A stretch of 27,888 nt of DNA from a virus, in the IMG/VR virus record IMGVR_UViG_3300013126_000191, positions 1 through 27,888 of that record; one strand, given 5' to 3'. Of this stretch, positions 1,979-26,427 are shown piece by piece (position 1 is the stretch's first letter; the number at the start of each line of letters is the position of its first letter). The notes beneath the pieces were generated by a model, which did no database searches, was not told the origin of the DNA, and saw only the letters and a list, made by a program, of their open reading frames with translations. The position numbers and the translations under genes were made by a program.

Positions 1979-2054
1979 CCGGTTGGTGTGCAACTGTCGA
2001 CACTCCTCGTTGATGGTTGCGCATTCCATGCGGGTTTGGTAGTAATGCTCTTGA

Positions 2055-4434: not shown

Positions 4435-4440
4435 CTAAGA

Positions 4441-4464
4441 TGTCACCTCATGCCTACTGTGACA
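4441..4464 (+). promoter_or_regulatory. conserved 24-bp element, copy 1 (before the portal block)
   Basis: The sequence is TGTCACCTCAT, then GCCTACT, then GTGACA. The outer six bases form a perfect inverted repeat (TGTCAC/GTGACA). It lies seven bases after the terL stop and ends two bases before the ATG at 4467. The first eleven bases are identical in all four copies in the window. No terminator is visible just upstream of this copy. If it is a promoter, the next message would be almost leaderless; if it is an operator or RNA element it could control translation of the adjacent start. Confidence 0.7.
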
Positions 4465-4466
4465 CC

Positions 4467-4724
4467 ATGGAAAGCAAGAACTCATTCAGCCTGGACATAG
4501 CGAGCAACGAGGAAATGCGAAAGCTCTTCATCGGCAAGCAGCCCGGTGAATCAGTGACCCTCGAAACGACCTTTGTGGTGTCTGAGGTATCTGAGACGTT
4601 GGCAACTGGGACGATCTCAGAAGTGACTCCGATTGGCGGAGATCCAGGACCTATGGATGACGAGGACGATGGACCAGTCCCAGCAGCGGCGGTGGTGATC
4701 GCGAACAGCAAAGCAAAAAAGTGA
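4467..4724 (+). CDS. hypothetical acidic protein, 85 aa
   Basis: The frame begins MESKNSFSLD at 4467. Longer in-frame starts exist at TTG 4431 and ATG 4440, but they would place the conserved 24-bp element inside the coding region, whereas the other copies of that element are outside genes, so I chose the ATG just after it. The product has a compact N-terminal part, a run of beta-like segments (TLETTFVVSEVSETL), an acidic Asp/Pro-rich stretch (around residues 56-67) and a basic end (SKAKK). There is no membrane segment or recognised domain. It sits between terminase and portal, where small head-assembly accessory proteins are often found. The stop overlaps the GTG start of the next gene (GTGA). 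Confidence 0.6.
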   Translation: MESKNSFSLDIASNEEMRKLFIGKQPGESVTLETTFVVSEVSETLATGTISEVTPIGGDPGPMDDEDDGPVPAAAVVIANSKAKK

Positions 4725-5080
4725 ACCCAACGGATTTTAAAAGCCGAGAGTCCATCACGGTTGATCTCATCTGGGACCATTATGAGACCATGTCGATAAC
4801 TCGCGGCATGCAACTCCAGCAGGCGATTGCGATCGCCAAGAGGATGCGAATCGGGCTGTACGAGATGGGGGCACTTGCTGGAGCGTTTCATGCCAAATCC
4901 CACAAAGCGATCAGGCCTGATAACCGCATGATGGATGAGTGTGTTAAGAACGGGATTTTTCCTCCCTGCGTGGGTCTTCAATTTCTCATGTTCGACAACA
5001 GCATAAAGCTGATGCGAGGAGGCAAACCTAAGCTCTTACAACCGGTCCACCTCTTAAATTCTGACGAGACCTATGATTGA
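4721..5080 (+). CDS. hypothetical protein between terminase and portal, 119 aa
   Basis: Translation probably begins at the GTG at 4721, which overlaps the preceding stop, giving a protein that starts MNPTDFKSRE. Its end overlaps the portal start by eight bases (portal ATG at 5073), so the three genes are closely coupled. The sequence is mixed helical, with an amphipathic region around residues 28-60 (MQLQQAIAIAKRMRIGLYEM) and no obvious motif. The portal-adjacent position suggests a small head-completion or packaging accessory protein. I do not recognise the family. Confidence 0.65.
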   Translation: MNPTDFKSRESITVDLIWDHYETMSITRGMQLQQAIAIAKRMRIGLYEMGALAGAFHAKSHKAIRPDNRMMDECVKNGIFPPCVGLQFLMFDNSIKLMRGGKPKLLQPVHLLNSDETYD

Positions 5081-7496
5081 CTATCGCATCTTGAAATTGT
5101 TCGGGACCACGAATGAGCGATTGCGCGAGATTTGCACCTCTGACGCAAATCCTCCAGGGTATCAAAAGGTGTCTGAGCAGCAAGTTAAAGATCGGCAGCA
5201 GTTGGAAAAGTGGAAGAAGCGGTTCTCAAATCGGTTGCATGAGGGTGTGATGTGGTCCCTGCGCAACTACAAGCTTTATGGCGCGGTGGACTTGGCGTGG
5301 GATTCAACCCCGATCAGCAAGGACGTTTACCCGCTGATGTTATACGCCCAAGGCAAGATCGACATGGTTCGGTTGATGTCTGATGTCACCACGACCACAA
5401 CAACCGGTGAAACGACGGTTCCGGCAACGGTCAAGCCATACCTCAAAATGCAGGACGATAAAATCGTCGGCATTGATCTTCCTAAGTTTGTGGAGTCGAG
5501 CTTCAACTTGGTTCGCTCGATCGTGTCTCGGCGTGTGGCGGCTCAGACTGTCAAATACAACCAGCTTTGGCCGTATTACAAATACGAATCACGCAACACT
5601 GGGTTGGCCGGGAAGCTCAAGGCTGATGTGTTGTCGCAATCCGTGGACGTGATCGCTGACCAGTTTGGATACCGGCAGCACGACCCTCAGGTTGTGCGGG
5701 ATATGTTCCTCTACTCGCGATCGGTGGACTTCGTTAAAAGCGCGTGGGAGGTTGAGTATCAGTATCGTCTCAAAAACCTGGATCCGAGCTTGGTTGGGAC
5801 CGAGATCACACCTGACAAGGTGGAGAAATACGTCGTAAAGGAGGGGCTTTCATGGGTCAACCCTCACCCAACGCGATTGTTCTATGATGCGGCCTATCCG
5901 TTGACCACGCTAAACACGGACACCGGGATTGGTTACATTGGCTTTTGGGACGTCAAACGGTTCTCAGACATCCACGGGAATAAGGACTACTGGAACCGTG
6001 ACAAGGTCTCGTATGGTGGCGGGCTGTGGGACGCCTATCACACCTACGGCACCTACTTCAACCAATACCTGCATGCAATCGTTCCGCCAATCGGGACCAA
6101 AGGCCAAATCTATCCTGCCAACGTTCCGGGTGAGAACGACCGTCAAGGGACGCTATCTCTATACACTCAGGACATGGGTCAAACGTCGTCGTTTGTGGCG
6201 GAGTATTATGAGCGCCTGATCCCATGCGACGAAGGAATAGGCACCTACGATCAGCCAGTGTGGGTGCGGTTCGTGTTGGCTGGGGAGAACACGATCTTGT
6301 TCGCTCAGATCATGCCGAGCACCCCGGCCGCAGTTTGCACGCACAATGAGAACGAAGGCCGAAGACTCAACCTGTCATTGGCGCATGAGATCCTTCAATA
6401 CCAGGACATTCTCACCAACCTTACAACTGCTGTTCGCTCCATGCTTGAAGCGGAGTGTGCCAAGATCTTCCTGGTCAACATTGACGTGCTGAAGGGACCA
6501 GGGGAGACGGATGGATCTAAGACTGACGAGCGCCTAAAAACTTTGCGATCCAAGTTGTCCGGCAAGAATTGGGCTTCGGATCCAACGGTTGTGGAATATT
6601 CCATGTCGATCATGGAGGAGTTGAAGATGAACCCGAAGGATGTGCTCACCATCGTAGAGCCTCGTCTTGGCCAGAGTATCGAGACCATCTTTCGGGCCAT
6701 CCAGCAGTTCATTGCCATGGTTGAACGGCTCAACGGCATATCACCAGCAGAGCAAGGTCAACCTGCTCCCCGCGAGACATCGGCCACCGAGACCGCGCAG
6801 ATCGCGACCACCACGCAGGCGATCGAGAATTTCATTTCGGACGGGATTGATGAGTATCGAGCAGCGAAGAAGCGCATCATCTACGAGAGCCTTGTAGCCT
6901 GTTCTCAGCGCCGTGTGCGTATGCCTGTAATCGGGAGATATACGGAGAAGACCGTGAAGGAAGCTGGCTTTGCTGTTGACGAGTCTGAAAACGAGGATTT
7001 CTCTGACCCCAGGGTCAAACGCCGCACAGTGACGGGAGACGTTCAGGCGTTGGTCTATGACTACAATTTTACGTCCAGGGATGGCGCTGACAGGCCGGTC
7101 AACTCTCAAGCTGCGGCGGCCCTCGTTCAGTCTCTATCACAGATCATGGCGGTCCCTCAAGCGTTCATGGCACTTGGTAAGGAGAAGCTCTACTCGATCC
7201 TCAATGAGATCTTCAGGCTTTCTGGAGCCGGGTTTGATTTGAACCTGGAACTGAAAGAAGGCGAAGACGATAGCCTCGGCCAGAACGACGTTGACGTGCT
7301 GAAGCAAACGGTTGAGCAAATTGTCCAAGCGCTCAACCAGACCGCTCAAGAGATCGCCAAGCAGCAGAGCGTCAACGAGACGCAGGAACAACAGTTGGTT
7401 CACCTGAACGACCTGGCTCGCGTGGTTCAAAAGATGGCGAGCGATGTTGATCGGCTCATGGGCCGGGTAGATCAGATGTCCCAGAAAGCAGTCTGA
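5073..7496 (+). CDS. portal protein (head-tail connector ring), 807 aa
   Basis: The portal forms the dodecameric ring through which DNA enters and leaves the capsid. The call rests on its place right after the terminase, its size (podovirus-type portals are often 600-800 residues), and its sequence layout. An N-terminal region has many aromatic and charged residues. A central helical region includes NLSLAHEILQYQDILTNLTT (about residue 435 onward). A further long helical part carries ATETAQIATTTQAIENFI, as seen in portal stem and wing regions. The C-terminus (about 735-807) is a Gln-rich coiled coil, reminiscent of portal barrel or crown helices. The start overlaps the previous gene, and no frameshift is seen. 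A nearby possibility would be a fusion with an extra C-terminal helical domain. Confidence 0.85.
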   Translation: MIDYRILKLFGTTNERLREICTSDANPPGYQKVSEQQVKDRQQLEKWKKRFSNRLHEGVMWSLRNYKLYGAVDLAWDSTPISKDVYPLMLYAQGKIDMVRLMSDVTTTTTTGETTVPATVKPYLKMQDDKIVGIDLPKFVESSFNLVRSIVSRRVAAQTVKYNQLWPYYKYESRNTGLAGKLKADVLSQSVDVIADQFGYRQHDPQVVRDMFLYSRSVDFVKSAWEVEYQYRLKNLDPSLVGTEITPDKVEKYVVKEGLSWVNPHPTRLFYDAAYPLTTLNTDTGIGYIGFWDVKRFSDIHGNKDYWNRDKVSYGGGLWDAYHTYGTYFNQYLHAIVPPIGTKGQIYPANVPGENDRQGTLSLYTQDMGQTSSFVAEYYERLIPCDEGIGTYDQPVWVRFVLAGENTILFAQIMPSTPAAVCTHNENEGRRLNLSLAHEILQYQDILTNLTTAVRSMLEAECAKIFLVNIDVLKGPGETDGSKTDERLKTLRSKLSGKNWASDPTVVEYSMSIMEELKMNPKDVLTIVEPRLGQSIETIFRAIQQFIAMVERLNGISPAEQGQPAPRETSATETAQIATTTQAIENFISDGIDEYRAAKKRIIYESLVACSQRRVRMPVIGRYTEKTVKEAGFAVDESENEDFSDPRVKRRTVTGDVQALVYDYNFTSRDGADRPVNSQAAAALVQSLSQIMAVPQAFMALGKEKLYSILNEIFRLSGAGFDLNLELKEGEDDSLGQNDVDVLKQTVEQIVQALNQTAQEIAKQQSVNETQEQQLVHLNDLARVVQKMASDVDRLMGRVDQMSQKAV

Positions 7497-7518
7497 TAAC
7501 CATCACCACACCCAAGCT

Positions 7519-9060
7519 ATGTCAACCGAAACACCGAATGTCACTCCACCACAAACGCCGCCACCCGTAGACCCATGGCTCGCTAGACTTAACGGATCGC
7601 TCCAACAGGCCGTCGAACCTGATCCGAAGGCTACGGACGCAACTCCCGAAACCGTTACGTTGACGAATACCGGGGCCTCGAACATTGCCGAGCAAGCAAT
7701 GTTGATCAGTCGACAGTCAGCATCCGATCAGAAGCCGGAAGAGAAGCCTGCGGCAACCACCACCACTCAGGAACCTACCAAGCCATCGACGCCTCCTGAG
7801 CCTGCACCTGAGAAGGTTGTCGAACCTACAGCGCCAGCTACCCAGACTCCAGTTGAAGAGCCAAAGCCTGCTTCTGTAAAAGTCAATCGGCCTAAGGTGG
7901 CTGTGGTGCCCGTGCCGGAAGTTCCTTCTCAGGCACCAACTCAGACGCCCCAGCAGCCTCCTGCGGTAGTTCAGGAGCCACCAAAACCAAGTGCGGATGA
8001 TCAAGCGTTCTTGGACTCTTTGACGGAGGATGAACGGGATGAATACGAGTTGGCGCTCTACGCTGCTAAAGCGAACCCGGTTCATGCCGGCAAACCCGGC
8101 GAGGTGTTGGCTTTCTTCAAAAAGGTGCAGCAATTCACCGCGTCTCATCCGGATAGTCAGCCGGACTCTCAGGAGTTCCAGCAGTTGATTGATCAGAATC
8201 GTCCACGGTGGGCTCCAGGCGAAAAGCGCAAGCTGTCTAAGAAGATGATCGAGGATGCCGCCGTTGAGCGGGCTAAGGCGGAAATTCATGCCACGGTATC
8301 GAAAGACTTGGATGCGACCAATGCTAAGTTGCGGGAGATTGAGAAGGGGCCGGATGTTTCAAGGCGTGTAGCTGAGTTCAAGCAAAACGCGTTGTCTCAG
8401 GTTCCAGAAGGCTACAGCCGTATAGATCCAGACGTTATCGCCAAAGCTTCAACGCTGAGCCGAGGTGAGTTGATTGAGCAGTATCCAGTCGAGGGGGTTG
8501 TGTTAGCCAAGCATTTTGACGCTGTGACGGCCTTAGAGCGCATCAAAGAGGGCGTTGAGGAGTTCAGCCCAAGCAACCAGACTCACGCCTTCCTGTTGGC
8601 ATTCCTAAACCAGCAAGAGCAATACTTAGCCGCGGCACCGAACACCATCAAGAAGGACCACGCAGGGAGAACCTGGGTTAGCCGAATGCAAATGGAGCAA
8701 CTTCTTACCAAGGATCCGGCTGCTCAGCAGAAATATTGGTTCATCGACAACGAAATGCTTAAGTCTCAACTCGCTGTTCATGCTCACGAAGAGGTTGGAA
8801 ACCGCGTAGATCAGCTTGTGAAAGCAGGATTCGAGCGCAAGCAACCAGCTAAAACCGCTACTCCAGCCGCTACGGTGCAGGCTGCGGCACCGGCAACTCC
8901 AGCGGTTAAACCTGTGGTTCCTGCTGTCGCTTCAACCAATCCACACGCAGGCCCCAAAGCATCGGTGTCTACTGCGCCAGGCGCGGAAACGGTCACACGT
9001 GCGCCTAGCGAGGCCGAGAAGTTCATCCAGTCCAGAGTCCCAGGTTATAAGCTCGGTTGA
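7519..9060 (+). CDS. scaffolding-like protein, 513 aa
   Basis: The gene lies between portal and major capsid protein, where the scaffold is normally encoded. The first 160 or so residues are low-complexity, rich in Pro, Thr, Glu and Ala. A charged, mainly helical region follows (about 165-440; DEYELALYAAKANPVHAG, then EIHATVSKDLDATNAKLREI). An Ala/Pro/Val linker (about 440-490) leads to a short basic-ended tail SEAEKFIQSRVPGYKLG, which could be the capsid-binding end. This layout of a disordered arm, a helical body and a C-terminal contact helix is typical of scaffolds. No protease motif is visible. The ATG has no Shine-Dalgarno; a C-rich stretch CCATCACCACACCC precedes it. A strong terminator follows 20 bases after the stop. 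Confidence 0.7.
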   Translation: MSTETPNVTPPQTPPPVDPWLARLNGSLQQAVEPDPKATDATPETVTLTNTGASNIAEQAMLISRQSASDQKPEEKPAATTTTQEPTKPSTPPEPAPEKVVEPTAPATQTPVEEPKPASVKVNRPKVAVVPVPEVPSQAPTQTPQQPPAVVQEPPKPSADDQAFLDSLTEDERDEYELALYAAKANPVHAGKPGEVLAFFKKVQQFTASHPDSQPDSQEFQQLIDQNRPRWAPGEKRKLSKKMIEDAAVERAKAEIHATVSKDLDATNAKLREIEKGPDVSRRVAEFKQNALSQVPEGYSRIDPDVIAKASTLSRGELIEQYPVEGVVLAKHFDAVTALERIKEGVEEFSPSNQTHAFLLAFLNQQEQYLAAAPNTIKKDHAGRTWVSRMQMEQLLTKDPAAQQKYWFIDNEMLKSQLAVHAHEEVGNRVDQLVKAGFERKQPAKTATPAATVQAAAPATPAVKPVVPAVASTNPHAGPKASVSTAPGAETVTRAPSEAEKFIQSRVPGYKLG

Positions 9061-9079
9061 GCAATATCAGGTTTAGGAG

Positions 9080-9113
9080 AGTCCCAAGACGATTGTCCGT
9101 CTTGGGACTTTTT
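9080..9113 (+). terminator. strong intrinsic terminator after the portal/scaffold block
   Basis: A perfect 12-bp stem (AGTCCCAAGACG at 9080-9091 pairing with CGTCTTGGGACT at 9098-9109) encloses a six-base loop and runs into a T tract (9109-9113). It lies 20 bases after the scaffold stop and 37 bases before the next conserved 24-bp element, so it cleanly separates two transcription units. Confidence 0.92.
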
Positions 9114-9150
9114 ACGTACGAATACGGCCATCTTGTTGAACTGGTCGGCC

Positions 9151-9174
9151 TGTCACCTCATTTTGGTTGTGACA
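9151..9174 (+). promoter_or_regulatory. conserved 24-bp element, copy 2 (before the capsid gene)
   Basis: The sequence is TGTCACCTCAT, then TTTGGTT, then GTGACA, with a perfect inverted repeat in the outer six bases. It lies in a gene-free gap between the terminator at 9080-9113 and the capsid protein ATG at 9199, leaving a 24-base stretch before the start that contains AGGA. Because the terminator ends the preceding message, a promoter is needed here, and this element is the most conserved candidate. Confidence 0.78.
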
Positions 9175-9198
9175 TTGAAAAACTGAACAGGACGCTTT

Positions 9199-10863
9199 AT
9201 GGCTTTGATTACTACGCCTCCATCTGCACCGAGGATCATCTCGGTGGACCCATCTAATGGTTCGATGACTCGCGCCAGCATCATCGGGTTGACCCCGCAG
9301 ATGTTCGAGGATCAAGGCTTCAAGGAAGTCGGCATGGACAAGGTCTATGGACGCGCCAAGGAGGCTCGATGCGCTGGGTATCAGGAGAAGGGGATTGAAA
9401 TGCTTGTGGCTGGTGTGACCGGCCCTATGAAGTTCAAAGGACTCACCAAGCAATCGCTCGGACACAACGAGTCCGTGATCCTGCCTTATATCGTTCGCAA
9501 GCAGCGCACCACGATCAACGCCAATTACTGGCATGTGTATGCCGCTGCTGCTCATCCAAGCGCTGGTTCCAACGGGGTTCACCCTGGGGCCTATCGTTTG
9601 ACGATTCGCAACACGGGATCGACCTACGCAAGTTCTCTGGTCCAGATCCAACGCTACTTCCTTCCTAGCAAGTTCTTGATCGTGGACCACACCAACGCCT
9701 CTACAGGCGCGGCGTTCCAGGCTCAGTTCAAGATCCTTGGCAGTTCCAACGCCGATTCAGGCGGCATCTCGCAAGCCTACGTCGACGTCGAGCCTTGCAT
9801 TGATTCCACAGATTGGGCAGCTGCGAGCGCAGGCACGAAGCTTCCTTATCAGCCGACATCCGGTTTGGCGATGGTGCTCGCCAATTCGATCAGTGACTTT
9901 GAATCTTGGGGCCAGAACCACGCGTCGGATAACCCAATGAAGCTGTTGGCTTTCTGGGTTCAGACATCTCGGTTTGCGTGGGAATACAACGACGAATATG
10001 TCAAGTCTCTCACGGCCAGTCTGACCTCGGAGTATTTCAAGCAGTTCCGGCAGCTTCCTTTGGCTGAACAACGTCGGCAGCAATACGCCCACTACAAGCG
10101 GGAGCTGCTCAACACGTTCTTCTACGGCCAGAAGATCAACGACAATCAGACGGTCGAAGGTTACACGGATCTACCACGGGTGATGGATCCTGAGAACCCT
10201 GACTTGCTGCTCGAATACAAGGCGAACACCGAAGGCGTCATTTCTCAACTTCGAAACAGCTCTCGCGTTACGGATCACCTCGGAAACGCGTTCAACCTGG
10301 CTGCGTTGGTTTCGACCGGCTACCAAGTCAAGCGAGCTCGCGAAGGATCCGGCATGTCGGACGTGAACGACATCGACATCATGGTTCCGCGTGAGTTGAG
10401 CGGATTGATCTTGCAGAGCATGGTGACGTTCTACAAAGCCAAGTACGGCGTAGACGTCCAGCGCCAATACAACCCGAACCAGGAGTTGCGGCACGACAAC
10501 CAGGTTGCGCTTCGGTGGAACACTTACCAGATCCCCGATGACTTTGGTGGATTTAACCTGAACGTCTTCGCGGATGACTTCTTCTCGGATCGCATCGCTG
10601 CGGCGTCTTCGATTGGCAACAGTGCGGTGAGTCGAGCGCGGTCTGCGTGGATGATCGACTGGACGGACGTCGCTTTGGAGATGGGTGCTAGTGAGAGCGT
10701 TACCCGCCAAACCAACGTCAATGACGCCTTGTTCCGCTACGTCATCAAGCCAAACATGAAGCACGTTCAGCTTGAGTCTGAAACGTTTGCGGTCACTGTT
10801 AGCGATCCTAACAGGTCGGCTGTGGTTGAGAACTTCAGCAACTCCGTTACCGGGCTGTATTAA
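9199..10863 (+). CDS. probable major capsid protein, 554 aa
   Basis: This is the first gene after a terminator and a promoter-like element, immediately after the scaffold, and lacks low complexity; both are usual for a highly expressed shell protein. The 554 residues are evenly mixed alpha/beta. An N-terminal arm is rich in Pro, Ser and Thr, a helical mid-section includes QQYAHYKRELLNTFFYGQKI (around residues 290-320), and then DPENPDLLLEY. The last third, with ARSAWMIDWTDVALEMG and a final beta-rich tail, fits the axial domain of HK97-type shells. I cannot point to a diagnostic motif, so the fold is inferred from context and length. AGGA (9188-9191) precedes the ATG at 9199 as a plausible ribosome-binding site. 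Confidence 0.8.
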   Translation: MALITTPPSAPRIISVDPSNGSMTRASIIGLTPQMFEDQGFKEVGMDKVYGRAKEARCAGYQEKGIEMLVAGVTGPMKFKGLTKQSLGHNESVILPYIVRKQRTTINANYWHVYAAAAHPSAGSNGVHPGAYRLTIRNTGSTYASSLVQIQRYFLPSKFLIVDHTNASTGAAFQAQFKILGSSNADSGGISQAYVDVEPCIDSTDWAAASAGTKLPYQPTSGLAMVLANSISDFESWGQNHASDNPMKLLAFWVQTSRFAWEYNDEYVKSLTASLTSEYFKQFRQLPLAEQRRQQYAHYKRELLNTFFYGQKINDNQTVEGYTDLPRVMDPENPDLLLEYKANTEGVISQLRNSSRVTDHLGNAFNLAALVSTGYQVKRAREGSGMSDVNDIDIMVPRELSGLILQSMVTFYKAKYGVDVQRQYNPNQELRHDNQVALRWNTYQIPDDFGGFNLNVFADDFFSDRIAAASSIGNSAVSRARSAWMIDWTDVALEMGASESVTRQTNVNDALFRYVIKPNMKHVQLESETFAVTVSDPNRSAVVENFSNSVTGLY

Positions 10864-10901
10864 GCCAGTCTACACCGACCATCACTTACCCCATACCGAT
10901 T

Positions 10902-11381
10902 ATGATCTCTCCCGAAATCAGGCAAATCATTGGAGCAGCTCCGAGTAGCATCAGTAGCCAAGCAGCGGATGCGTCGTTCTTATTCACAGCGACGGGCGCT
11001 GATGTTGGTTATGTCAAGGTTGACATGGCTGGATTCAGCGTCGCTCGCGAGATTCATCTCACCGGTAAGACCGTCACAAACACCACCCCTCCAGGATCGT
11101 CCAAGACGTTGACAGTGAGCTACGCGTGGAGCGACGAAGACTTCACCCCGGCTGCGGCTGCGGCGACGCTCTTGGCTGATCGCAAGACCACACTCACGGC
11201 GAAGACGATCGGCAACAACGCCAGCGAGACGTTGCAATGGCGGTTTACTGGAGCGACTCCGCTGCGTGTGGAGGCCCGCTATCTGTTGGTCTACTACAAC
11301 CTCACTGCGTTAGCCGCTAGCGCCACCTTGACCGGGGCGATCAACGTTGCGGTTGTGCCGTCTGCTGCGGCTGACGTGTAA
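10902..11381 (+). CDS. probable head decoration or accessory structural protein, 159 aa
   Basis: This gene follows the capsid gene by 38 bases. The product starts MISPEIRQII. It is Ala/Thr-rich and beta-patterned (KTLTVSYAWSDEDF, then a Thr/Leu region and VEARYLLVYYNLTAL) with no membrane segment or catalytic motif. The small size, beta-rich composition and position after the shell protein fit a capsid decoration or cement protein, though head-tail completion is also possible. The start has no Shine-Dalgarno; a C-rich stretch CCATCACTTACCCC (10879-10892) precedes it, resembling the one before the scaffold gene. A strong hairpin follows the stop. Confidence 0.6.
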   Translation: MISPEIRQIIGAAPSSISSQAADASFLFTATGADVGYVKVDMAGFSVAREIHLTGKTVTNTTPPGSSKTLTVSYAWSDEDFTPAAAAATLLADRKTTLTAKTIGNNASETLQWRFTGATPLRVEARYLLVYYNLTALAASATLTGAINVAVVPSAAADV

Positions 11382-11386
11382 TCAAT

Positions 11387-11413
11387 TCCGAGTGCCGCTG
11401 TTCGGCATTCGGA
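11387..11413 (+). promoter_or_regulatory. 11-bp hairpin without T tract
   Basis: TCCGAGTGCCG (11387-11397) pairs with CGGCATTCGGA (11403-11413) around a five-base loop, with one G-T wobble. No T run follows, so it is a poor intrinsic terminator. It could be a transcript-processing or stabilising structure between the head gene and the small membrane genes, or a Rho-independent terminator of non-standard type. The structure is certain from base complementarity; the role is not. Confidence 0.6.
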
Positions 11414-11435
11414 CGTGCATAGTGATTGGGTGATT

Positions 11436-11465
11436 GCTGGCGGTCGGGTAACACTGGCCGCCAGC
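11436..11465 (+). promoter_or_regulatory. second hairpin, just upstream of a small membrane gene
   Basis: GCTGGCGG (11436-11443) pairs perfectly with CCGCCAGC (11458-11465) around a 14-base loop. The downstream arm ends 17 bases before the ATG at 11483, so folding could affect ribosome access. Together with the hairpin at 11387-11413 it makes up most of this 101-base gene-free interval. Confidence 0.5.
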
Positions 11466-11482
11466 TCTACAGACGAAAGCCT

Positions 11483-11728
11483 ATGGCCGAGAAGACACTG
11501 ATTCAGTTGCAGAAGATTTCCGCAGTTCTTGGGATCACCATTGGGGTGTTATCTGGGGTTCAAGCGTGGGCAGTTCTTCCGTATAGGATCCAAGAGCTTG
11601 AGTCCAAGACTCGACTCATCGAAAGCGCGCTTACCAGGGTGGACAAAGAACTTGTTGCGATTTCAGTTTCTCAGAATGACATCAAAGAATCTTTGGTTGA
11701 GGTTCGTCAGATTCTTAACAAGCGGTGA
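11483..11728 (+). CDS. single-helix membrane protein with coiled-coil tail, 81 aa
   Basis: Starting at the ATG at 11483 (MAEKTLIQLQ), the protein has one hydrophobic helix at about residues 12-32 (ISAVLGITIGVLSGVQAWAV). A charged heptad-like helix follows at about 36-79 (RIQELESKTRLIESALTRVD and beyond). An in-frame start at 11426 would run through the hairpin region and adds an unlikely polar leader, so I prefer the internal ATG. An N-terminal anchor plus coiled coil is the layout of inner-membrane spanins and of some small phage membrane proteins; without a neighbouring lysin or outer-membrane partner this is only a possibility. A second hydrophobic small protein follows after one base. Confidence 0.65.
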   Translation: MAEKTLIQLQKISAVLGITIGVLSGVQAWAVLPYRIQELESKTRLIESALTRVDKELVAISVSQNDIKESLVEVRQILNKR

Positions 11729-11729
11729 T

Positions 11730-12128
11730 ATGGCAAAGTACTTTGAAGCGCACGGGATACAGCGCAAACCAGCCGGGATCGATTGGATCTCGATCGGTGT
11801 TGTAGGTGGGTGCTTGTTCGGGGTGTATGAGGCTGTTGACCCTGCGGAAGTGACCAAGCTTGTCCGCATGGCGCAAGACCCTGCATCGGGGATTGAGGAA
11901 GTTACTGCTGAGTATTTTCAGGCCAAGACCGGCAGACCGTTGTTCGTGGAGCCAGTGGCACCAATCAAGCCGGACGACGTTGTGGTTCCAAAGCCTGCAA
12001 CCCCTAAGCAAATCAAGGGGAACGGCAAAACGATTGTTGTAGAGAACTGTCCTGTGCCTGAGGCGGTTGCTTCCAATACGACGCGAGACCTTAATCTCGA
12101 CGAGGTCCTCAAGGTTAATAAGTTCTGA
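11730..12128 (+). CDS. small protein with one hydrophobic segment, 132 aa
   Basis: The ATG at 11730 lies one base after the preceding stop. The product begins MAKYFEAHGI and has a Gly/Val-rich hydrophobic stretch at about residues 17-33 (GIDWISIGVVGGCLFGV). After it comes a Pro/Lys/Val-rich middle (about 72-100) and a polar end (LNLDEVLKVNKF). The hydrophobic stretch is marginal as a membrane span because it is short and bounded by acidic residues; it could also be a buried strand-helix. An in-frame upstream start at 11529 overlaps the whole previous gene and is rejected. Function unknown; close spacing with the upstream membrane protein suggests that the two act together, perhaps in lysis or in the virion. 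Confidence 0.6.
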   Translation: MAKYFEAHGIQRKPAGIDWISIGVVGGCLFGVYEAVDPAEVTKLVRMAQDPASGIEEVTAEYFQAKTGRPLFVEPVAPIKPDDVVVPKPATPKQIKGNGKTIVVENCPVPEAVASNTTRDLNLDEVLKVNKF

Positions 12129-12152
12129 TCGAGAACAAACAGCGAAACGATT

Positions 12153-13307: not shown

Positions 13308-13335
13308 TCTCGGGCGGACAGCCCATGCAATACAG

Positions 13336-13364
13336 GCCGCCCGATAATATTGGGCGGCTTTTTT
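13336..13364 (+). terminator. intrinsic terminator after the capsid block
   Basis: GCCGCCC (13336-13342) pairs with GGGCGGC (13352-13358) around a nine-base AT-rich loop, followed by TTTTTT (13359-13364). An upstream CGGGCGG (13311-13317) can instead pair with CCGCCCG (13337-13343), giving a mutually exclusive hairpin. The next conserved 24-bp element begins 12 bases after the T tract. Confidence 0.9.
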
Positions 13365-13375
13365 GTTTGAGCATC

Positions 13376-13399
13376 TGTCACCTCATCCTTACTGTGCTT
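13376..13399 (+). promoter_or_regulatory. conserved 24-bp element, copy 3 (before the tail block)
   Basis: The sequence is TGTCACCTCAT, then CCTTACT, then GTGCTT. The left eleven bases are identical to the other copies, while the right arm departs from GTGACA after GTG, so the inverted repeat is lost here. It sits between the terminator (13336-13364) and the ATG at 13404, only four bases away. Invariance of the left half without the dyad suggests that the left half is the main recognised part. Confidence 0.75.
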
Positions 13400-13403
13400 T
13401 GTC

Positions 13404-18396: not shown

Positions 18397-18411
18397 TCGA
18401 AGGGCAAGACT

Positions 18412-21400
18412 ATGGCAGCAGAACAATTCTTTTGTGACATCGACCTGAACCGTAGCGAACTGATCAATGCCAGACTGCACAACGCGGCTGGCACCGGGTC
18501 ACTGGCTTCGCCTGCGGTGGATGGTCAACTCTACTACGATACGCAGGCCGGGGTTAAGCGGATCCACTTCTACGACGATACCGCTGCTGCGTGGATACCG
18601 GTCCCGCGCCTGGATCAGAACATGACGGTGACAGGGACATGGAACTTCAACCCGGCTTCAGGGGCACCGTTCACTGTCGGTAACTCGACCAAGGTCACCA
18701 ACCTCAACGCGGATCTGTTGGACGGCTACAACGCTGACACCGCTGCCACAGCGAATACTGTGGCGGTGCGCGACTCCAACGGTCGGCTGAAGTTTACGGA
18801 CCCTTCTGCCAGCGACGACGGCGTGAACTACGGTTTCCTCCAGGGCTACGTGGCGGGGATCCGAGATCCGAAGGACGCCGCCCGGGTGGCGACAACTGCA
18901 AACCTGTCGGCTGCGAGGGTGAGCAATGTGCTGACAGCTTCGGCCAACGCGAGCATCAACACGGCTGGGATCGACGGCATCACCAGTCTGGCGGTCAACG
19001 ATCGCATCTTGGTCAAGAACCAAAGCACCGGAGCAGACAACGGGCTTTACATCATCACCAGCTTGGGCAGCGCCGGGACACCGTGGGTGATGACTCGATC
19101 GAGTGACGCAGATTCATCGTCCAAGGTGACCAGCGGGTTGCAGGTATGGGTGACCGAAGGAACAACGAACGGATCGACCGGCTGGTTGCTCAACACGCCG
19201 GATCCGTTGACCCTAAACACGACTGCTCTGACGTTCATCCAGGTCAACGGGACCGCGAGCATCACCGCTGGCAACGGGATTGTGAAGGTCGGCAACACGC
19301 TTCACTTTGCTCAGTCATCATCCTACAACACGGGAGGATTCTTCTACGCGTCAGGCGCTTCCGCTGTTGGGCATACAGCAGCGTTGAGCGGCATCATCCA
19401 GGGTAACGGAGCATCGGCCCCAACGGCGGTTTCTGGCACGCAATACGGGCTTCCATACTTCGCGACCACGACGACGGTTGGAAGCACGGCGGCAGGCACG
19501 TCCACGCAGGTATTGCACGGCAATGCAGCAGGGGCTCCCACGTGGGGCGCGGTGAGCTTGACGGCTGACGTGACTGGGACGCTGCCCGCGAATAAGGGGG
19601 GGACCAATCTGACGTCATTCACGGCCAACGCTGTGCTGTGGGCGTCGTCCACAAGTCAAGTGGCTACGTCGTCAACGCTCTACTGGGACGGAACTTCGCA
19701 CGGAGTTGGAACAGCCACGCCTCGCCGGACTGTTGACGTGCTCAATGCGTCGAATCCTCAGATGCGCCTGACCTATACCGACAACTCGGTGTATGCCGAC
19801 TTCCAAGCAACGAGCACGGGCCATCTCGACGTCACGCCAAGCGGTGGGACTCGAATCACATCCACCGTCGTCAACAACTCCTCCGTCTCCGCCCGTCAAC
19901 TCTCCGGAGGTTTGGCGTTTGATGGAGTTAGCTCGGGGCACTTTGCGCAGTTTGTTATACCGACGATCGGAACCACCGATTTTACTTGGAGCAGGACATT
20001 TCTATGCCCAGCAACCACCACTGGCGGTCCTTATTTAGATGTTTTGATGAGTTCGGCGTCGAGCGCCGCTGGTTATAGCTTTATTTCATACTTCAGCGGG
20101 ACAAGTTTGGTTTTTCAACTGTGGGGATCTAGCATATCTTACGTCAGACAAGCCTTAATTGTCGATTTCGCGTCAGCATACGGTGGGTCAATCGTAAACG
20201 TAACCGCGACACGATCAGGGGCGACTCTGACAATATATATCAACGGAGTAGCAACTAGCTTTACCGAAACAACATCAGGAGTATCACCGCCTGCATCGTG
20301 GGCCGATACTATCAACTCAACGGTGCTTACCATTGGCAATTATCGGAATGCTGGGACAAATCCAATAAGCACTACGGTATACAATTCACAACTCTTCAAC
20401 CGCGCACTTTCTGCCAGCGAAGTCATCACGCTTGCAAACCAGGGTGTGCAGGAAGCGGATAAGTGGGGGAGTTTGACTGCGAAATATACGAGTAATTTTA
20501 GTGCGGGGGTGGATGGTTGGACTGCAGCTAGGGCGGTTCAAAGCTACGGAGTAACGTATAATGCTGTATCTGATTGTCTTTCCGTTTATGCTGATTCAGT
20601 CAGTTCAACTCACTCCGTTTATAACTTACCGTCATCAAGCATAGGGAGAGGAAACTGGGTTTTAGTATCGTTTGATTATGCTATTCCGTCAGGTCAATCA
20701 AACGTGAATAACCTCGGCATAGCACCAACCGGCGCAGCTGGAGATCCTGCAATTTACATCAACGGAACTCTCTACACAGGAGTCTACAATCTATCTGCCA
20801 TAGCGGACGGCACGTGGCGGACAAAAACTATCCTGATGAAATGCGCCGATGTTGCGACTATCGGAGGGGTAGCAACAGGTTCCCTTAGATTTGCAATACT
20901 TGGAATGTCTGGAAGCGCCAGTTCCTTTGTGGGAGCAAACAGTCCAACCGACGATCTGTTTTATATCAAAAACGTCACAGTCACCAAACTCGGCTGCATC
21001 CTCGACGCCGATTTGGCTGGTGCAAACCCGCTCATTTCGACAACGGTCATTGATCGTTCGTCCAACGCTTTCAACGGCACGATGACCACCACCGGGATCT
21101 CGCAGCGCCGTCAACTGATGACTCAGTATGTGAATGGTAACATCGTCTTAGGGCCTACAGCCAGAGCTGTATCAACGACAACAGGCAACCTGACACTGTC
21201 GACTCTCGCAGGCAACGGGCATGTCGTCGTGTCTCCTCACGGCACGGGCAACGTTGGAATCAAGACCACTGGCCCTGATCGTGCGTTGGACGTCCTGGAT
21301 GCGGCTAGCCCTCAACTCCGCTTAACGCAAGCTGATGGCACGGTTTACACTGATCTCCAAACCAACTCATCGGGTTACTTCCTGATCACACCATCGGCTG

Positions 21401-24400
21401 GATACACCCTCATTGGAACCACGACCGCCCACTCAAAACTCACGGTTGCAACCTCGTCACTTGGGACTACTCAGACCAATACATCTGGCCTGGCTCTAGC
21501 CACTGACACAGCGGCAGCCAATGGGGCGCAGCAAATCAGCGCGGCATTGCGTTTTAGAGGCTATGGCTGGAAGACGAATGCGACGGCGGCGAGTCAGTCC
21601 GTTGACTTCCGTATGCACGTTGTGCCGGTTCAAGGCACTGCCAACCCAACTGGTTATCTCACGTTCCAAGCCGACTTGAATGGTGCTGGTTACACGGAAT
21701 TGCTTCGCATTGGATCAACCACACTCACAGCGACAACGGTCGTGATTACGGATGCCAACAAGCAACTCGCATCCGTTCCGGTAAACTCCGCCGCAGCCCC
21801 ATACTTCCTAACTCAAACGAGCAGCGGTTCCCCGGTGTTTACCGAGTTGTTTGGTGCCAACAATTCTTGGTCAGGAGCACAGACGTTTGTGGGAGCTGTT
21901 GTGGTGCCTACCCCTACATCATCGACGCACGCAGCCACAAAGGCCTACGTCGATGCGCTTGGCAGCGGCTTGCGCGTCAAAGACCCTGTCCGTGTTGCTA
22001 CTACCGCAGCTCTGCCTGCGAACAGTCGTGCCGGTGACGTGCTAACAGCTTCCGCCAATGGCTCGATCAATGGGACCGGTATCGATGGAGTTACTACGCT
22101 CGCTCTCAATGACCGGGTGTTGGTCAAGAATGAGGCCACTCAAGCCAACAACGGTATCTTCTACTTGAGCCAGGTTGGTGACGGATCCAACCCGTGGAAG
22201 CTCACAAGAACCACCGACGTCGATACGGCGGCTGAGATCAATCTTGGGTGCTATACCTTCGTCACATCTGGCACTGCGAATGTCTCAACCTCATGGGTGC
22301 AAGCGAACACGGTCACAACGATCAACACCGATGCTGTGGCGTTCTCGCTGTTCTACCAAGGCGCAGCATACGTTTCCTCATCCGGCATTACGATCGCAGG
22401 GTTGACCATCTCAGTTGATCAATCGTTCTCGCCAACGTGGACCGGGGCTCACATCTTCAAGAACTCTGCCGGGGTGAGGCTGGATCCGTTCTCGACGTCC
22501 ACCGGCAACACGACGGAGTTGCGGTTTGCCGAGTTGGTGAGTAACGGATCGAACTACGTCGGGTTCAAGGCGGCTGATGCGATCACCACCAACACCATTT
22601 GGACCCTTCCAAGTGCTGATGGTAGCGCAAACCAATATCTCAAGACGAGCGGGGCCGGGGTGCTCTCATTCGCCACTATCCAATCAGGCGAGATCACCAA
22701 CGTTACATTTGTTACGTCGGTCAGCGGGACATCTGGGCAAGTTACTTCTACCGGAGGGTTGACCCCGGTGATTGCATTGGCGGCGAGCGGCGTGAGCGCA
22801 TCGACTTACGGCAGTGCGACCCAGATACCGGTTTTTGCGGTCGATACTTACGGCCGTATCACATCCGTCACTAACACGGCCATATCTCAAGCCCTGCTAT
22901 CAGCAACGCACTCGGACACCGTTGCAGGTGCTCCGGTGCGAGGCTCCATTATCATCGCGAACTCCACCCCGGCATGGACAGCTCTGGGGATTGGATCCGC
23001 AAACCTGGTCTTGCGATCGGACGGGTCGGATCCTTCTTGGGGCCAAGTCAACGTTACCACCGACATCACTGGAATTGTTCCACTCACCAACGGTGGGACA
23101 GGATTTGGGACCAAGACCGCTGCATTCAATGCGTTGAGCGCGTTGACCACAAAGGGCGACATCCTTGCCCATGATGGGACTGATAGCGTACGGTTAGCTG
23201 TGGGCACCAACCTGTATGTCTTGGTGGCTGACTCCGCTCAAGCAACGGGTTTGAGGTGGGCGTCTACAACATCGCTGCCAGTGGACGTGACGGCGGCTCA
23301 GTGGCAAGCGCGGTTCCGCAACGACACTTCGAGCGCACGATCTTCGATCTGGTCCAGCAACGCTGGCTTCCAATTCTCCCACGGGGCTTATTGGAGCGGG
23401 TCCGCATGGGTTCATGATCAAGCGGTCGGCCACACAACCAGCGTGGTGCTGCGGATCCAGGACACTTACGGTGCGCTTTGGTTTGCATCGAGCAATTCGT
23501 CGTCATCGTGGAACGTGGCTGACGGCTCGACCTTGTGGGATACCGAGGGCAACCACGTGGTGCAATACTCCAAGGGCACGGCCTACCGCCTCTATGACAA
23601 CCTTGGGGACTACGTGGAGATCACAGCCAAGTCATCTGTGACCAATGGGACATCTTGGAGTTGGCCCGGTGCAGACGGCAGCGCCAACTACGTGATGATG
23701 ACCAACGGTTCTGGATCGTTGTCTTTCGCGCAAGTCACGGCGGCCATGATCGGAAGCGGAGCAGCTCTCACCAAGACCGACGACACCAACGTCACCTTGA
23801 GCTTAGGTGGATCGCACGCGACTGCCCTACTTGCAGCTGCGTCCATCACGGTTGGATGGGCTGGGTCACTCAGCGCTACCCGAGGTGGAACAGCTCAGTC
23901 GACGTATGCGACCGGTGACACGCTCTATGCGAGCGCCACCAACACGTTGTCAAAGCTCACGATCGGAAGCACTAACAGGTTTCTGAAGAGCGATGGAACA
24001 ATCCCAGGATGGAGCGGGTTTTCGATGCCTGGCAGTGTGGCAACTAACGATCTGCTCTATGCGTCGAATTCGACCCAGCTCTCAACACTGACGTCAACAG
24101 CATCCAGGATCCTCATCACGGACGGAAGCGGCGTTGTCGGGTGGCGCAATGATCTACCATCTGGCACTACCAACAACGGACGCACGATCGCCAACACGGC
24201 TACCGGCAACATTACCGGTGACGGTTCAACGACGACGTTCACCTTCACGCATAACCTCGCGAGCAAGACGTTGGCCATTGGGGTGTGGGAAGATTCGACG
24301 GATACCATGTGCCGCGTTAAGATCGCCAACAACGGCGCGGACCCCACCAACAAAGTTGACATCACGTTCACGTTTGCACCCGCCAACCTCAAGGTGTTCC

Positions 24401-24420
24401 GAGTGCGGGCTTGCGCATAA
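18412..24420 (+). CDS. giant modular tail fibre, 2002 aa
   Basis: The N-terminus (MAAEQFFCDI, about residues 1-65) resembles virion-attachment domains of phage fibres. Two copies of the RVATT fibre module follow at about 152-303 and 1191-1338 (each with DGV/IT.LA.NDR.LVKN and a Trp-Thr-Arg turn). An ATKAYVDAL joint, typical of fibre shafts, precedes the second. Between them lies an insert with a LamG-like sandwich (about 499-675) and a CBM-like sandwich (about 690-860), plausible glycan binders. Three GGT-type shaft repeats occur, near nt 19600, 23090 and 23885. The end (FTFTHNL, H1947, to 2002) is another HNL beta module. The product probably trimerises and sets host range. A low-GC stretch inside the insert suggests transfer. 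Confidence 0.88.
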   Translation: MAAEQFFCDIDLNRSELINARLHNAAGTGSLASPAVDGQLYYDTQAGVKRIHFYDDTAAAWIPVPRLDQNMTVTGTWNFNPASGAPFTVGNSTKVTNLNADLLDGYNADTAATANTVAVRDSNGRLKFTDPSASDDGVNYGFLQGYVAGIRDPKDAARVATTANLSAARVSNVLTASANASINTAGIDGITSLAVNDRILVKNQSTGADNGLYIITSLGSAGTPWVMTRSSDADSSSKVTSGLQVWVTEGTTNGSTGWLLNTPDPLTLNTTALTFIQVNGTASITAGNGIVKVGNTLHFAQSSSYNTGGFFYASGASAVGHTAALSGIIQGNGASAPTAVSGTQYGLPYFATTTTVGSTAAGTSTQVLHGNAAGAPTWGAVSLTADVTGTLPANKGGTNLTSFTANAVLWASSTSQVATSSTLYWDGTSHGVGTATPRRTVDVLNASNPQMRLTYTDNSVYADFQATSTGHLDVTPSGGTRITSTVVNNSSVSARQLSGGLAFDGVSSGHFAQFVIPTIGTTDFTWSRTFLCPATTTGGPYLDVLMSSASSAAGYSFISYFSGTSLVFQLWGSSISYVRQALIVDFASAYGGSIVNVTATRSGATLTIYINGVATSFTETTSGVSPPASWADTINSTVLTIGNYRNAGTNPISTTVYNSQLFNRALSASEVITLANQGVQEADKWGSLTAKYTSNFSAGVDGWTAARAVQSYGVTYNAVSDCLSVYADSVSSTHSVYNLPSSSIGRGNWVLVSFDYAIPSGQSNVNNLGIAPTGAAGDPAIYINGTLYTGVYNLSAIADGTWRTKTILMKCADVATIGGVATGSLRFAILGMSGSASSFVGANSPTDDLFYIKNVTVTKLGCILDADLAGANPLISTTVIDRSSNAFNGTMTTTGISQRRQLMTQYVNGNIVLGPTARAVSTTTGNLTLSTLAGNGHVVVSPHGTGNVGIKTTGPDRALDVLDAASPQLRLTQADGTVYTDLQTNSSGYFLITPSAGYTLIGTTTAHSKLTVATSSLGTTQTNTSGLALATDTAAANGAQQISAALRFRGYGWKTNATAASQSVDFRMHVVPVQGTANPTGYLTFQADLNGAGYTELLRIGSTTLTATTVVITDANKQLASVPVNSAAAPYFLTQTSSGSPVFTELFGANNSWSGAQTFVGAVVVPTPTSSTHAATKAYVDALGSGLRVKDPVRVATTAALPANSRAGDVLTASANGSINGTGIDGVTTLALNDRVLVKNEATQANNGIFYLSQVGDGSNPWKLTRTTDVDTAAEINLGCYTFVTSGTANVSTSWVQANTVTTINTDAVAFSLFYQGAAYVSSSGITIAGLTISVDQSFSPTWTGAHIFKNSAGVRLDPFSTSTGNTTELRFAELVSNGSNYVGFKAADAITTNTIWTLPSADGSANQYLKTSGAGVLSFATIQSGEITNVTFVTSVSGTSGQVTSTGGLTPVIALAASGVSASTYGSATQIPVFAVDTYGRITSVTNTAISQALLSATHSDTVAGAPVRGSIIIANSTPAWTALGIGSANLVLRSDGSDPSWGQVNVTTDITGIVPLTNGGTGFGTKTAAFNALSALTTKGDILAHDGTDSVRLAVGTNLYVLVADSAQATGLRWASTTSLPVDVTAAQWQARFRNDTSSARSSIWSSNAGFQFSHGAYWSGSAWVHDQAVGHTTSVVLRIQDTYGALWFASSNSSSSWNVADGSTLWDTEGNHVVQYSKGTAYRLYDNLGDYVEITAKSSVTNGTSWSWPGADGSANYVMMTNGSGSLSFAQVTAAMIGSGAALTKTDDTNVTLSLGGSHATALLAAASITVGWAGSLSATRGGTAQSTYATGDTLYASATNTLSKLTIGSTNRFLKSDGTIPGWSGFSMPGSVATNDLLYASNSTQLSTLTSTASRILITDGSGVVGWRNDLPSGTTNNGRTIANTATGNITGDGSTTTFTFTHNLASKTLAIGVWEDSTDTMCRVKIANNGADPTNKVDITFTFAPANLKVFRVRACA
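18865..19320 (+). repeat. fibre module RVATT, copy 1
   Basis: Residues 152-303 of the large fibre. It opens DPKDAARVATTANL and contains GIDGITSLAVNDRILVKNQS, NGLYII and PWVMTRSSDAD, closing with SITAGNGIVKVG. The same order of motifs returns at residues 1191-1338. The match is at protein level; DNA identity is patchy. Confidence 0.85.
19726..19857 (+). repeat. fibre module DVL..PQ.RL, copy 1 (left flank of insert)
   Basis: Residues 439-482, opening RTVDVLNASNPQMRLTYTD and ending HLDVTPSGGTRI. About half of the positions match the copy at residues 957-1001 by eye. This copy sits immediately before the lectin-like insert. Confidence 0.8.
19905..20997 (+). other. low-GC lectin-like insert in the fibre gene
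   Basis: I counted GC in sample 60-base lines: 23, 25, 24 and 24 of 60 at 20101, 20221, 20341 and 20581, against 42 and 40 of 60 at 18841 and 19501 and 37 of 60 at 22441. The segment encodes residues about 499-861, a LamG-like domain (FDGVSSGHFAQF, LTIYINGVATSF, SQLFNRALSASEV) and a second beta-sandwich (FSAGVDGW, AIYINGTLY, DDLFYIKNVTV). The boundaries are approximate. Composition unlike its flanks suggests recent acquisition as a receptor-binding cassette. Confidence 0.7.
21280..21414 (+). repeat. fibre module DVL..PQ.RL, copy 2 (right flank of insert)
   Basis: Residues 957-1001, opening RALDVLDAASPQLRLTQAD and ending FLITPSAGYTLI. It lies 518 residues after copy 1 and follows a GTGNVGI segment commonly seen before this module in phage fibres. 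Confidence 0.8.
21982..22425 (+). repeat. fibre module RVATT, copy 2
   Basis: Residues 1191-1338, opening DPVRVATTAALP and containing GIDGVTTLALNDRVLVKNEA, NGIFYL and PWKLTRTTDVD, closing with VSSSGITIAGLTI. It follows the ATKAYVDAL joint, which marks the start of a shaft segment. Confidence 0.85.
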
Positions 24421-24429
24421 TCCAACACT

Positions 24430-25701
24430 ATGACCACAGGCTTCAGCAACGAAACGATCGAAGGCTCGGTGTCGATGCGTGGGTTTACATCCCCACCATC
24501 GGTGTCGGCATCTGGTTACGGGGCATTTCATTTCGACGCATCACTTGGAAAGTTTCGGATGTCTGAATCCGGTGGTGCCTACCAAGACATGGGTACTGTG
24601 CGGAGCGTAGGCATCACTGCTCCTGCTGCTGGGATCACGGCGACCGGTACGGTTACATCCTCGGGCACGATCACATTGGCGTTGGCAAATGACCTTGCGG
24701 CGTTGGAAGGTTTAGGATCTACCGGGTTCGCCAAGCGCACTGGATCTGATACGTGGACAACTCAGGTCAGCATAGACCTCACCGCAGATGTGACCGGAGC
24801 GCTCCAGATAGCCAACGGTGGCAGCGGTCAGACTACTAGGCAAGCAGCCTTCGACGCCTTGAGCCCACTGGCAAGCACTGGTGGCATGATCTTCAGGAAC
24901 AGCTTAGGGAACAACGTGCAGAGGTCGATAGGTGCAGATGGCACGTATCTCAAGGCCAGCGGTGGTTTGCCGGTGTGGAACTTTTTAAGCGGATCCGACA
25001 TCGGCAACGGCACAGTGGCCGCTGTTGTTGGAGGCACAGGGTTCAGCACCTACACCAGCGGCGACATGCTTTATGCGACAAGTGGGATCGCTCTTGGAAA
25101 GCTGGGTATCGGTTCATCAGGCCAGGTGCTCGCCGTGTTTTCAGGAGCGCCGGCATGGGTTACGCTGAGCTCCACCTCGTCGTCATTTGCGGCTACTCGC
25201 TTCGACACCTCTGGAGCCACAGCCGGGATCGCTCTTGCCAACCGCGCTACCGGACTCACCAACACGGGTGTTGAGTGGTATTGCCCAGCAACCGGCGAAG
25301 CCCATCTCTACAACTACAACACTCTCGCTGACAGCTTCGTCATCAATGGGTCAGGTCATGTCACAACCGGAGAATGGAGAGGTACGGTCGTTGCCGCGGC
25401 TTACGGTGGCACAGGCATTACGTCCTATGCTGTCGGCGACACTCTCTATGCCAATTCGTCGACGACGTTGGCGAAGTTGGCTGGCAATACGACAACCACT
25501 AAGAAGTTCCTGACTCAAACAGGAACAGGATCCGCATCACAGGCTCCGGTGTGGACGAGTCCTGTTACGGGATGGGCCGCTCAATCATGCTCGCTCAGCC
25601 GAACACTGCTTTGCGGTGGAAGCGCAACGCTCGACAATCTTTCCCAGGTCCTTTCGACGTTGATCAACGATCTCAGATCATTCGGAGTTATCACCACATG
25701 A
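24430..25701 (+). CDS. second tail fibre, 423 aa
   Basis: The gene starts nine bases after the large fibre stop, without a clear Shine-Dalgarno. The N-terminus (MTTGFSNETI, then GAFHFDASLGKFRMSESGGAYQ) looks like a short attachment or capping domain. The body carries three GGT/GGS shaft modules, near nt 24820, 25029 and 25402 (for example GGTGITSYAVGDTLYANSS). These are the same family as those of the large fibre, pointing to shared ancestry or gene duplication. The end, TLDNLSQVLSTLINDLRSFG, is a typical closing helix of phage fibre proteins. It may bind a different receptor or branch from the main fibre. The stop overlaps the glycosyltransferase start (ATGA). Confidence 0.85.
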   Translation: MTTGFSNETIEGSVSMRGFTSPPSVSASGYGAFHFDASLGKFRMSESGGAYQDMGTVRSVGITAPAAGITATGTVTSSGTITLALANDLAALEGLGSTGFAKRTGSDTWTTQVSIDLTADVTGALQIANGGSGQTTRQAAFDALSPLASTGGMIFRNSLGNNVQRSIGADGTYLKASGGLPVWNFLSGSDIGNGTVAAVVGGTGFSTYTSGDMLYATSGIALGKLGIGSSGQVLAVFSGAPAWVTLSSTSSSFAATRFDTSGATAGIALANRATGLTNTGVEWYCPATGEAHLYNYNTLADSFVINGSGHVTTGEWRGTVVAAAYGGTGITSYAVGDTLYANSSTTLAKLAGNTTTTKKFLTQTGTGSASQAPVWTSPVTGWAAQSCSLSRTLLCGGSATLDNLSQVLSTLINDLRSFGVITT

Positions 25702-26333
25702 AAATCCTTTTGGCATACGTGGTGACACGGCAACTTTTTGAAGACTTCCACCGAACGTTGAGTTGCCAGCTTCAGTTCCCTAATGCACGCAACGGGTTTG
25801 GCCAGGTGCTCGTCACTGACACCGATATGGGTGGGGCCGTTCCATCAGTGAAGGCGGATTGCTGGGTGAATGGCGAGTTCTGCTTAGCCAAAGCTCGCAA
25901 CGCTTCCATCGACTACGCTTTGAGTCACGGCTACGAGTGGCTCGTCACTTTGGACGCAGACTCGGTAGTCCTCAACATGCCGACCATTTTTCCGCGCTCT
26001 GGGTTCGCTCAAGTCAACGTGTTTCAACATCCATCTCAGACCCCGTATCACGACTTTGACTTGAGCAACCCCAACTTCTGGCACCTCATGGGTTGGTATC
26101 TCATTCATCGAGACGTGTTCTCTCGATACCGATTCTGCGAAGACTTCGTTGGGTATGGCTACGAGGAAGACGACTACCGGATAAACGTGCTGAAGAACGT
26201 TCAACCAATGATTACCGACATGCGGACCATCCACCTTTACCACCGCATGCGTTGCACTCAGGTTCACAACAAGGATTTATTTGAACAGAGGCGTGGACCG
26301 GTGGTTCCTCAATGCCGGATTGGAGCATCCTGA
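25698..26333 (+). CDS. GT-A type glycosyltransferase, 211 aa
   Basis: I chose the ATG at 25698, which overlaps the preceding stop by the shared ATGA. A frame reaching back to 25551 exists but would lie inside the fibre gene. The product has a short Rossmann-like start (MKILLAYVVT), a KARNASIDYALSHG segment (65-78), then a DAD motif (residues 86-88, in VTLDADSVV) that normally binds the metal-nucleotide sugar. GYGYEEDDY (152-160) resembles the acidic GWG.EDDD motif of galactosyltransferase-like families, and IHLYH (178-182) supplies possible metal-binding histidines. Its size suits a single catalytic domain. The donor and acceptor are unknown; the fibre, capsid or a host glycan are candidates. 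It ends the tail block. Confidence 0.8.
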   Translation: MKILLAYVVTRQLFEDFHRTLSCQLQFPNARNGFGQVLVTDTDMGGAVPSVKADCWVNGEFCLAKARNASIDYALSHGYEWLVTLDADSVVLNMPTIFPRSGFAQVNVFQHPSQTPYHDFDLSNPNFWHLMGWYLIHRDVFSRYRFCEDFVGYGYEEDDYRINVLKNVQPMITDMRTIHLYHRMRCTQVHNKDLFEQRRGPVVPQCRIGAS

Positions 26334-26365
26334 AAACACTGGACAAAGCTGTGTGCTAGCGTAAT

Positions 26366-26389
26366 TGTCACCTCATAGCTGGCGTGACA
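26366..26389 (+). promoter_or_regulatory. conserved 24-bp element, copy 4 (before the last block)
   Basis: The sequence is TGTCACCTCAT, then AGCTGGC, then GTGACA, again with a perfect inverted repeat at its ends. It lies in the 94-base gap after the glycosyltransferase, 38 bases before the ATG at 26428. I see no clear intrinsic terminator just upstream of this copy. Confidence 0.76.
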
Positions 26390-26427
26390 GTCACGCTGCT
26401 TAATCACAACCAATCACCGCAGAACTC

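Follow-up and report, generated by a model that had tools for sequence, protein, structure and literature searches.

Gene organisation and the repeated element

The window, which is the whole stretch of DNA analysed here, is a virus record of 27,888 bases and represents a fragment of a genome. The features that are needed to follow the analysis are listed below.

1250..1579, plus strand: XRE-type helix-turn-helix protein, a candidate regulator (phrog_8, E 7e-5)
2055..2921, plus strand: small-terminase-like protein with an N-terminal helix-turn-helix, aligned with a conserved family of 15 contigs
2830..4434, plus strand: terminase large subunit (phrog_2, E 8e-28), the query for finding relatives
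4441..4464, plus strand: element copy 1, TGTCACCTCATGCCTACTGTGACA, before a small acidic gene that follows the terminase
9080..9114, plus strand: intrinsic terminator before copy 2, identified by eye, with a 12-bp stem (AGTCCCAAGACG / CGTCTTGGGACT) and then T5
9151..9174, plus strand: element copy 2, TGTCACCTCATTTTGGTTGTGACA, before the gene in the capsid position (ATG 9199)
13334..13360, plus strand: intrinsic terminator before copy 3, a hairpin
13376..13399, plus strand: element copy 3, left arm exact and right arm GTGCTT, before ATG 13404
26366..26389, plus strand: element copy 4, TGTCACCTCATAGCTGGCGTGACA, 39 nt before ATG 26428

The sequence TGTCACCTCAT occurs exactly at positions 4441, 9151, 13376 and 26366, always on the plus strand, and has no copies on the minus strand of the window. 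The first-pass annotation had reported a 24-bp element at these places, and the identity of the four copies was confirmed; shuffled sequence yields a mean of 0.03 copies and never reached four. The inverted repeat that it had described, with GTGACA at equal spacing in three copies, was also recovered. Exact matches to TGTCAC-N12-GTGACA are at 4441-4464, 9151-9174 and 26366-26389, and nowhere else in the window is there a match even when 2 mismatches are allowed. Copy 3 retains the left arm and has a degenerate right arm, in which GTGCTT replaces GTGACA. A loose search of the window for the motif (2 mismatches in 11) gave no excess, so that significance is confined to the exact copies, on which the finding is based.

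Although the window is 94% coding under the ORF rule used, all copies fall into the gaps that separate long ORFs. The spacings given earlier between motif end and ATG (3, 25, 5 and 39 for copies 1 to 4) hold when they are read as offsets, and the two copies said to follow terminators are copies 2 and 3, which lie behind the hairpins at 9080-9114 and 13334-13360. Since these elements come directly after terminators, transcription must restart there. The gene behind copy 2 has AGGA upstream of ATG 9199. At copy 4, a 15-codon frame (26384-26431) has its GTG start inside the right arm, shares an ATGA at its end with the gene at 26428, and is possibly a leader peptide coupled to that gene.

The left end of the window (1-2050) is unlike that of relatives and carries minus-strand ORFs, an XRE-type helix-turn-helix gene and a gene for a holin-sized membrane protein, which stand where relatives have the XRE-like and recombinase genes. 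The product of 13404-14879 has an adaptor-like N-terminus (SU10 adaptor, below cut-off) fused to a calcineurin-like phosphoesterase domain, and relatives align with its first ~200 residues only. A 2002-aa fibre-like protein (18412-24420) has two stretches, at residues ~131-297 and ~1167-1336, that both match one protein of a relative, which suggests an internal duplication.

Versions of the element in related phages

Relatives were found by their terminase, first at 22 and then at 80 loci in viral contigs, with 7 more in genome contigs. A search of GenBank phages returned no near relatives and two distant terminases only, and searches with the capsid and portal proteins found none that were nearer. 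Relatives whose terminases are 40-55% identical carry analogous elements at homologous gene starts. Most relatives that have the junction after the terminase carry a short element there, with a common plan and different letters: GTGACACTAAA, GTAACACTAA, GTTACCCTAAA, GTNACCTTAA, GTTACCTAAC, GTTACAATAAA and GTAACACGAAA, compared with GTCACCTCAT in the window. A few loci have no element at this junction (e.g. L049, L050, L078 and L102). In contig G022, an element also precedes the homologue of the capsid-position gene that follows copy 2 in the window.

The sequence of the element varies from phage to phage around a core of GTNAC-(N)CTAAA. A second GTNAC box often follows the first by 16-17 nt; some sites lack it, and its spacing varies between phages (24-27 bp overall). 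Because GTNAC is nearly palindromic, the pair of boxes can be read as inverted (the window and G009 type) or as direct (the G012 type). Tandem pairs of elements before one gene were seen after the terminase in L085 and at position 50566 of G012, with GTTACA boxes shared. The earlier proposal of a phage-specific transcription element at block starts is supported by the analogous elements at homologous junctions. The exact 24-base layout is absent from IMG/VR outside the window.

Longer contigs repeat their own version of the element: about nine times in G001, five in G009, about six in G011, and about five to six in G021 and G022. When a 10-mer from only the terminase site serves as the seed, 3-10 copies are found in the best contigs, against 0-0.3 expected; in shorter loci, the same approach often returns the seed copy alone. 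Of 60 copies in ten contigs (72-94% coding), 57 are oriented with the local coding strand, and 51 avoid ORFs of 120 aa or longer, most of these being at gene starts. Sites in relatives are partly homologous, so some dependence among the counts persists in spite of clustering. As expected of dispersed operators, multiple similar sites occur within one phage genome and lie, in a preferred orientation, in promoter regions, these promoters being predicted from sequence. Recombination sites for a tyrosine recombinase were rejected on the orientation and gene-start position of the elements.

Promoter-like signals and putative leaderless starts

According to the first-pass annotation, no sigma70-like pair stands at a fixed distance from the element. 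This is correct for a pair anchored to the motif, which was not found, and a strict scan of window positions 1-15000 gave no plus-strand match. It is incorrect in that a -35-like hexamer anchored to the start codon precedes several copies. A search at a fixed distance from the motif misses this hexamer, as its spacing is set from the start codon. The promoter-like hexamers of the window are as follows.

4431..4436, plus strand: TTGACT, -35-like, 36 nt upstream of ATG 4467 and overlapping the terminase stop codon
4455..4460, plus strand: TACTGT, weak -10-like, spanning -12 to -7 of a transcript that would begin at ATG 4467
13367..13372, plus strand: TTGAGC, -35-like, 37 nt before ATG 13404
13390..13395, plus strand: TACTGT, weak -10-like, 17 nt after TTGAGC

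ATG 4467 lies exactly 7 nt after the -10-like TACTGT that begins at 4455. Within the window, the leaderless layout is seen at copies 1 and 3, with -10 hexamers that agree with the consensus in no more than 3 of 6 positions. Copies 2 and 4 do not show it, have leaders and lack a clear promoter, and copy 4 has no clear -35 at the start-anchored position.

The same arrangement recurs in the relatives. TTGAC keeps a distance of 34-37 nt upstream of the start codon, irrespective of whether the core-to-start distance is 14, 20, 22, 25 or 27 nt. When all candidate ATG starts in the contigs are considered, 14 of the 18 TTGAC occurrences upstream of element-bearing starts fall at 34-37 nt; at starts that lack the element the background is flat, with no such peak. 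Among 40 non-redundant sites, 15 have TTGA at 33-38 nt from the start (permutation p < 5e-5; start distances were shuffled among sites, and the observed count was never reached in 20,000 trials), and 25 lack it at the expected place. The distance from TTGA to the start stays constant while that from TTGA to the element spans -21 to -2. In 8 of the 15 TTGA-bearing sites, TAnnnT begins at -14 to -12. Shine-Dalgarno sequences precede 8 of 74 element-led starts, which is the random rate (10.6% of random positions have one), compared with 136 of 459 for the remaining long ORFs. As a class, about 15 of the 40 sites are compatible with a leaderless sigma70-type layout, with a -35 about 35 nt upstream, a -10 at -12 and no Shine-Dalgarno sequence.

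These spacings bear on whether the element is itself a promoter. The core could be recognised by a polymerase or sigma factor, either altered or encoded by the phage, that starts transcription 14 nt downstream, with TG-N-NACNCT resembling an extended -10. This is unlikely, although cores closer than 14 nt to the start codon are very rare (3 sites when counted from ORF starts) and the spacing has a peak at 14 (12 sites), as well as at 26 and 29. Three G010 genes that lack TTGA at the expected place have their ATG exactly 14 nt after the core, and by eye the core looks like promoters of the SP6/T3 type. However, the -35 tracks the start codon and not the core. No T7-type RNA polymerase (PF00940) was found in 15 related contigs, which may be incomplete, by a search that does find that of T7, and a search of 8 contigs for sigma-70 region 2, with positive controls, gave no match. 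A promoter of the T7/SP6 type, attractive by eye, is disfavoured, as no such polymerase was found in these contigs and the -35 is anchored to the start codon. Giant proteins of 2.8-3.7 kaa are kept in the lineage (L144:560-11755, L145:583-10293 and L146:899-9313) and have no PHROG match. As virion polymerases they are disfavoured at the level of sequence: they have no polymerase family match, the one tested has no PDB sequence match, and their conserved blocks show no polymerase motif by eye. The element therefore does not look like the promoter itself, as the -35 and start codon appear to be in register and the element floats between them. The earlier suggestion of a promoter or an operator is accordingly narrowed: the operator fits better, and the promoter for a phage polymerase is disfavoured.

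The TCACCTC core equals part of the 3' end of bacterial 16S rRNA, and the arms of the element could pair, so an effect at the RNA level, on ribosomes or through a hairpin, had also been considered. The 16S idea fails because this core is not conserved; relatives have GTAACACTAAA, GTTACCCTAAA and similar sequences at the same places. At leaderless starts, moreover, the left arm would be untranscribed, and an Rfam search of the window returned no match. An RNA-level role is hardly credible.

Candidate binding proteins

The candidates for a regulator, and they are candidates only, are an XRE-like family of the relatives, the helix-turn-helix of the small-terminase-like protein (2055-2921) and the helix-turn-helix protein at 1250-1579 of the window. 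The XRE-like family (115-160 aa) is present in most relatives whose sequence covers the upstream region, is absent from the window fragment, and often has an element at the beginning of its own gene. Its high-confidence model (pLDDT 88) resembles XRE/Cro-C1 proteins such as C.Esp1396I, with a middling best Z of 5.9. Co-variation of this family with the element is weak (partial r 0.25, p 0.0015 after control for the terminase) and confounded by shared descent, and the signal was lost after control for the small-terminase-like protein, so that co-variation does not identify the family as the binding protein.

Among the proteins tested, the distances of the small-terminase-like protein track those of the element best, above all in its helix-turn-helix domain (raw r 0.73; 0.35 when the rest of the protein is controlled for), a result likewise confounded by descent. 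It is very unlikely, though conceivable, that this protein, with a helix-turn-helix that changes with the element, is the regulator that binds it and would couple packaging to virion expression. Similarly improbable is that the small-terminase-like protein binds the element in order to package DNA or to link packaging with transcription. The same correlations speak for this, but relatedness confounds the test, and numerous gene-start sites, nearly all on the coding strand, are unlike a packaging site.

A tyrosine recombinase is encoded in 13 of 15 related contigs and was not found in the window fragment. In many of these 13 contigs its gene (L028:4179-5009 and homologues) lies between those of the XRE-like and small-terminase-like proteins, an unusual spot for an integrase. 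Its presence fits temperate relatives.

A putative operator and its sign of control

On balance we lean, if only slightly, towards reading the element as a putative operator, specific to the phage lineage, that sits at block starts on leaderless sigma70-type promoters and more probably mediates repression than activation. The promoter beneath it would consist of a -35 TTGAC some 35 nt upstream of the start codon and a weak -10 TAnnnT at -12, with RNA starting at or beside the start codon. A phage DNA-binding protein, probably dimeric, would read the two GTNAC boxes and dock between the -35 and the start codon, such that the virion blocks are switched together. Repression of this kind may act as a lysogeny or timing switch.

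Repression is considered likelier because the position of the element within the promoter is loose and often over the -10. Sites may lie anywhere from about -30 to +10, which fits a repressor better than an activator. The conservation of XRE-like (Cro/C1-type) proteins in the lineage is in line with the operator reading. Activation is left open by the weak -10 hexamers and by the sites that lack a -35. A late activator of the phage, bound to the element, could recruit host RNA polymerase to such promoters, and the virion (late) identity of the blocks and the elements right after terminators are in keeping with this. Nevertheless, the element lies within the promoter core at a variable distance from the -35, a place that activators seldom occupy, and a good -35 is kept at many sites, which makes the activator site a rather unlikely explanation.

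As a candidate member of the class of dispersed operators, the element has parallels among known phage systems. In P1, one repressor, C1, acts through operators of 17 bp, of which 22 are dispersed over the genome (PMC8546580); compared on dispersal and consensus alone, the element shares the dispersal and differs from the P1 consensus, ATTGCTCTAATAAATTT. Cluster A mycobacteriophages (L5, Bxb1) have 20-30 stoperators/operators in a single orientation relative to transcription, and the motif drifts between related phages (PMC6550527), both of which are likenesses to the element. Stoperators, however, are mostly off promoters, inside transcribed regions, and block elongation, whereas the sites described here are at gene starts on inferred promoters (51 of 60 outside long ORFs). 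SPBRE of Bacillus phage SPbeta is a repeated element in promoter regions, as here, and has a known binder, the master repressor MrpR (PMC10516654), where the present element is a putative operator. MrpR has lost the crucial Arg and His, while the tyrosine recombinase of this lineage keeps the R, HxxR and Y residues (by eye).

These three systems are alike in mechanism, while the SAS/ESAS repeats of cluster K mycobacteriophages are alike in position. The latter are short repeats just before start codons, conserved by gene family, some of which have an inverted-repeat extension (PMC3203893). SAS, GGGATAGGAGCCC, is found at translation starts and includes an AGGAG that is ribosome-binding-like; the element has no such sequence and has a -35 in register.

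Implications for phage gene control

Comparison of drifting copies allows the element, the -35 and the start codon to be separated, and consequently an operator can be distinguished from a promoter by sequence alone. An entire clade of uncultured phages has the element in versions of its own. If the leaderless starts are true, virion operons that begin in this manner across a phage clade would be unusual. The result is a testable map of gene control for a widespread uncultured phage clade that has no close cultured relatives in the collection searched.
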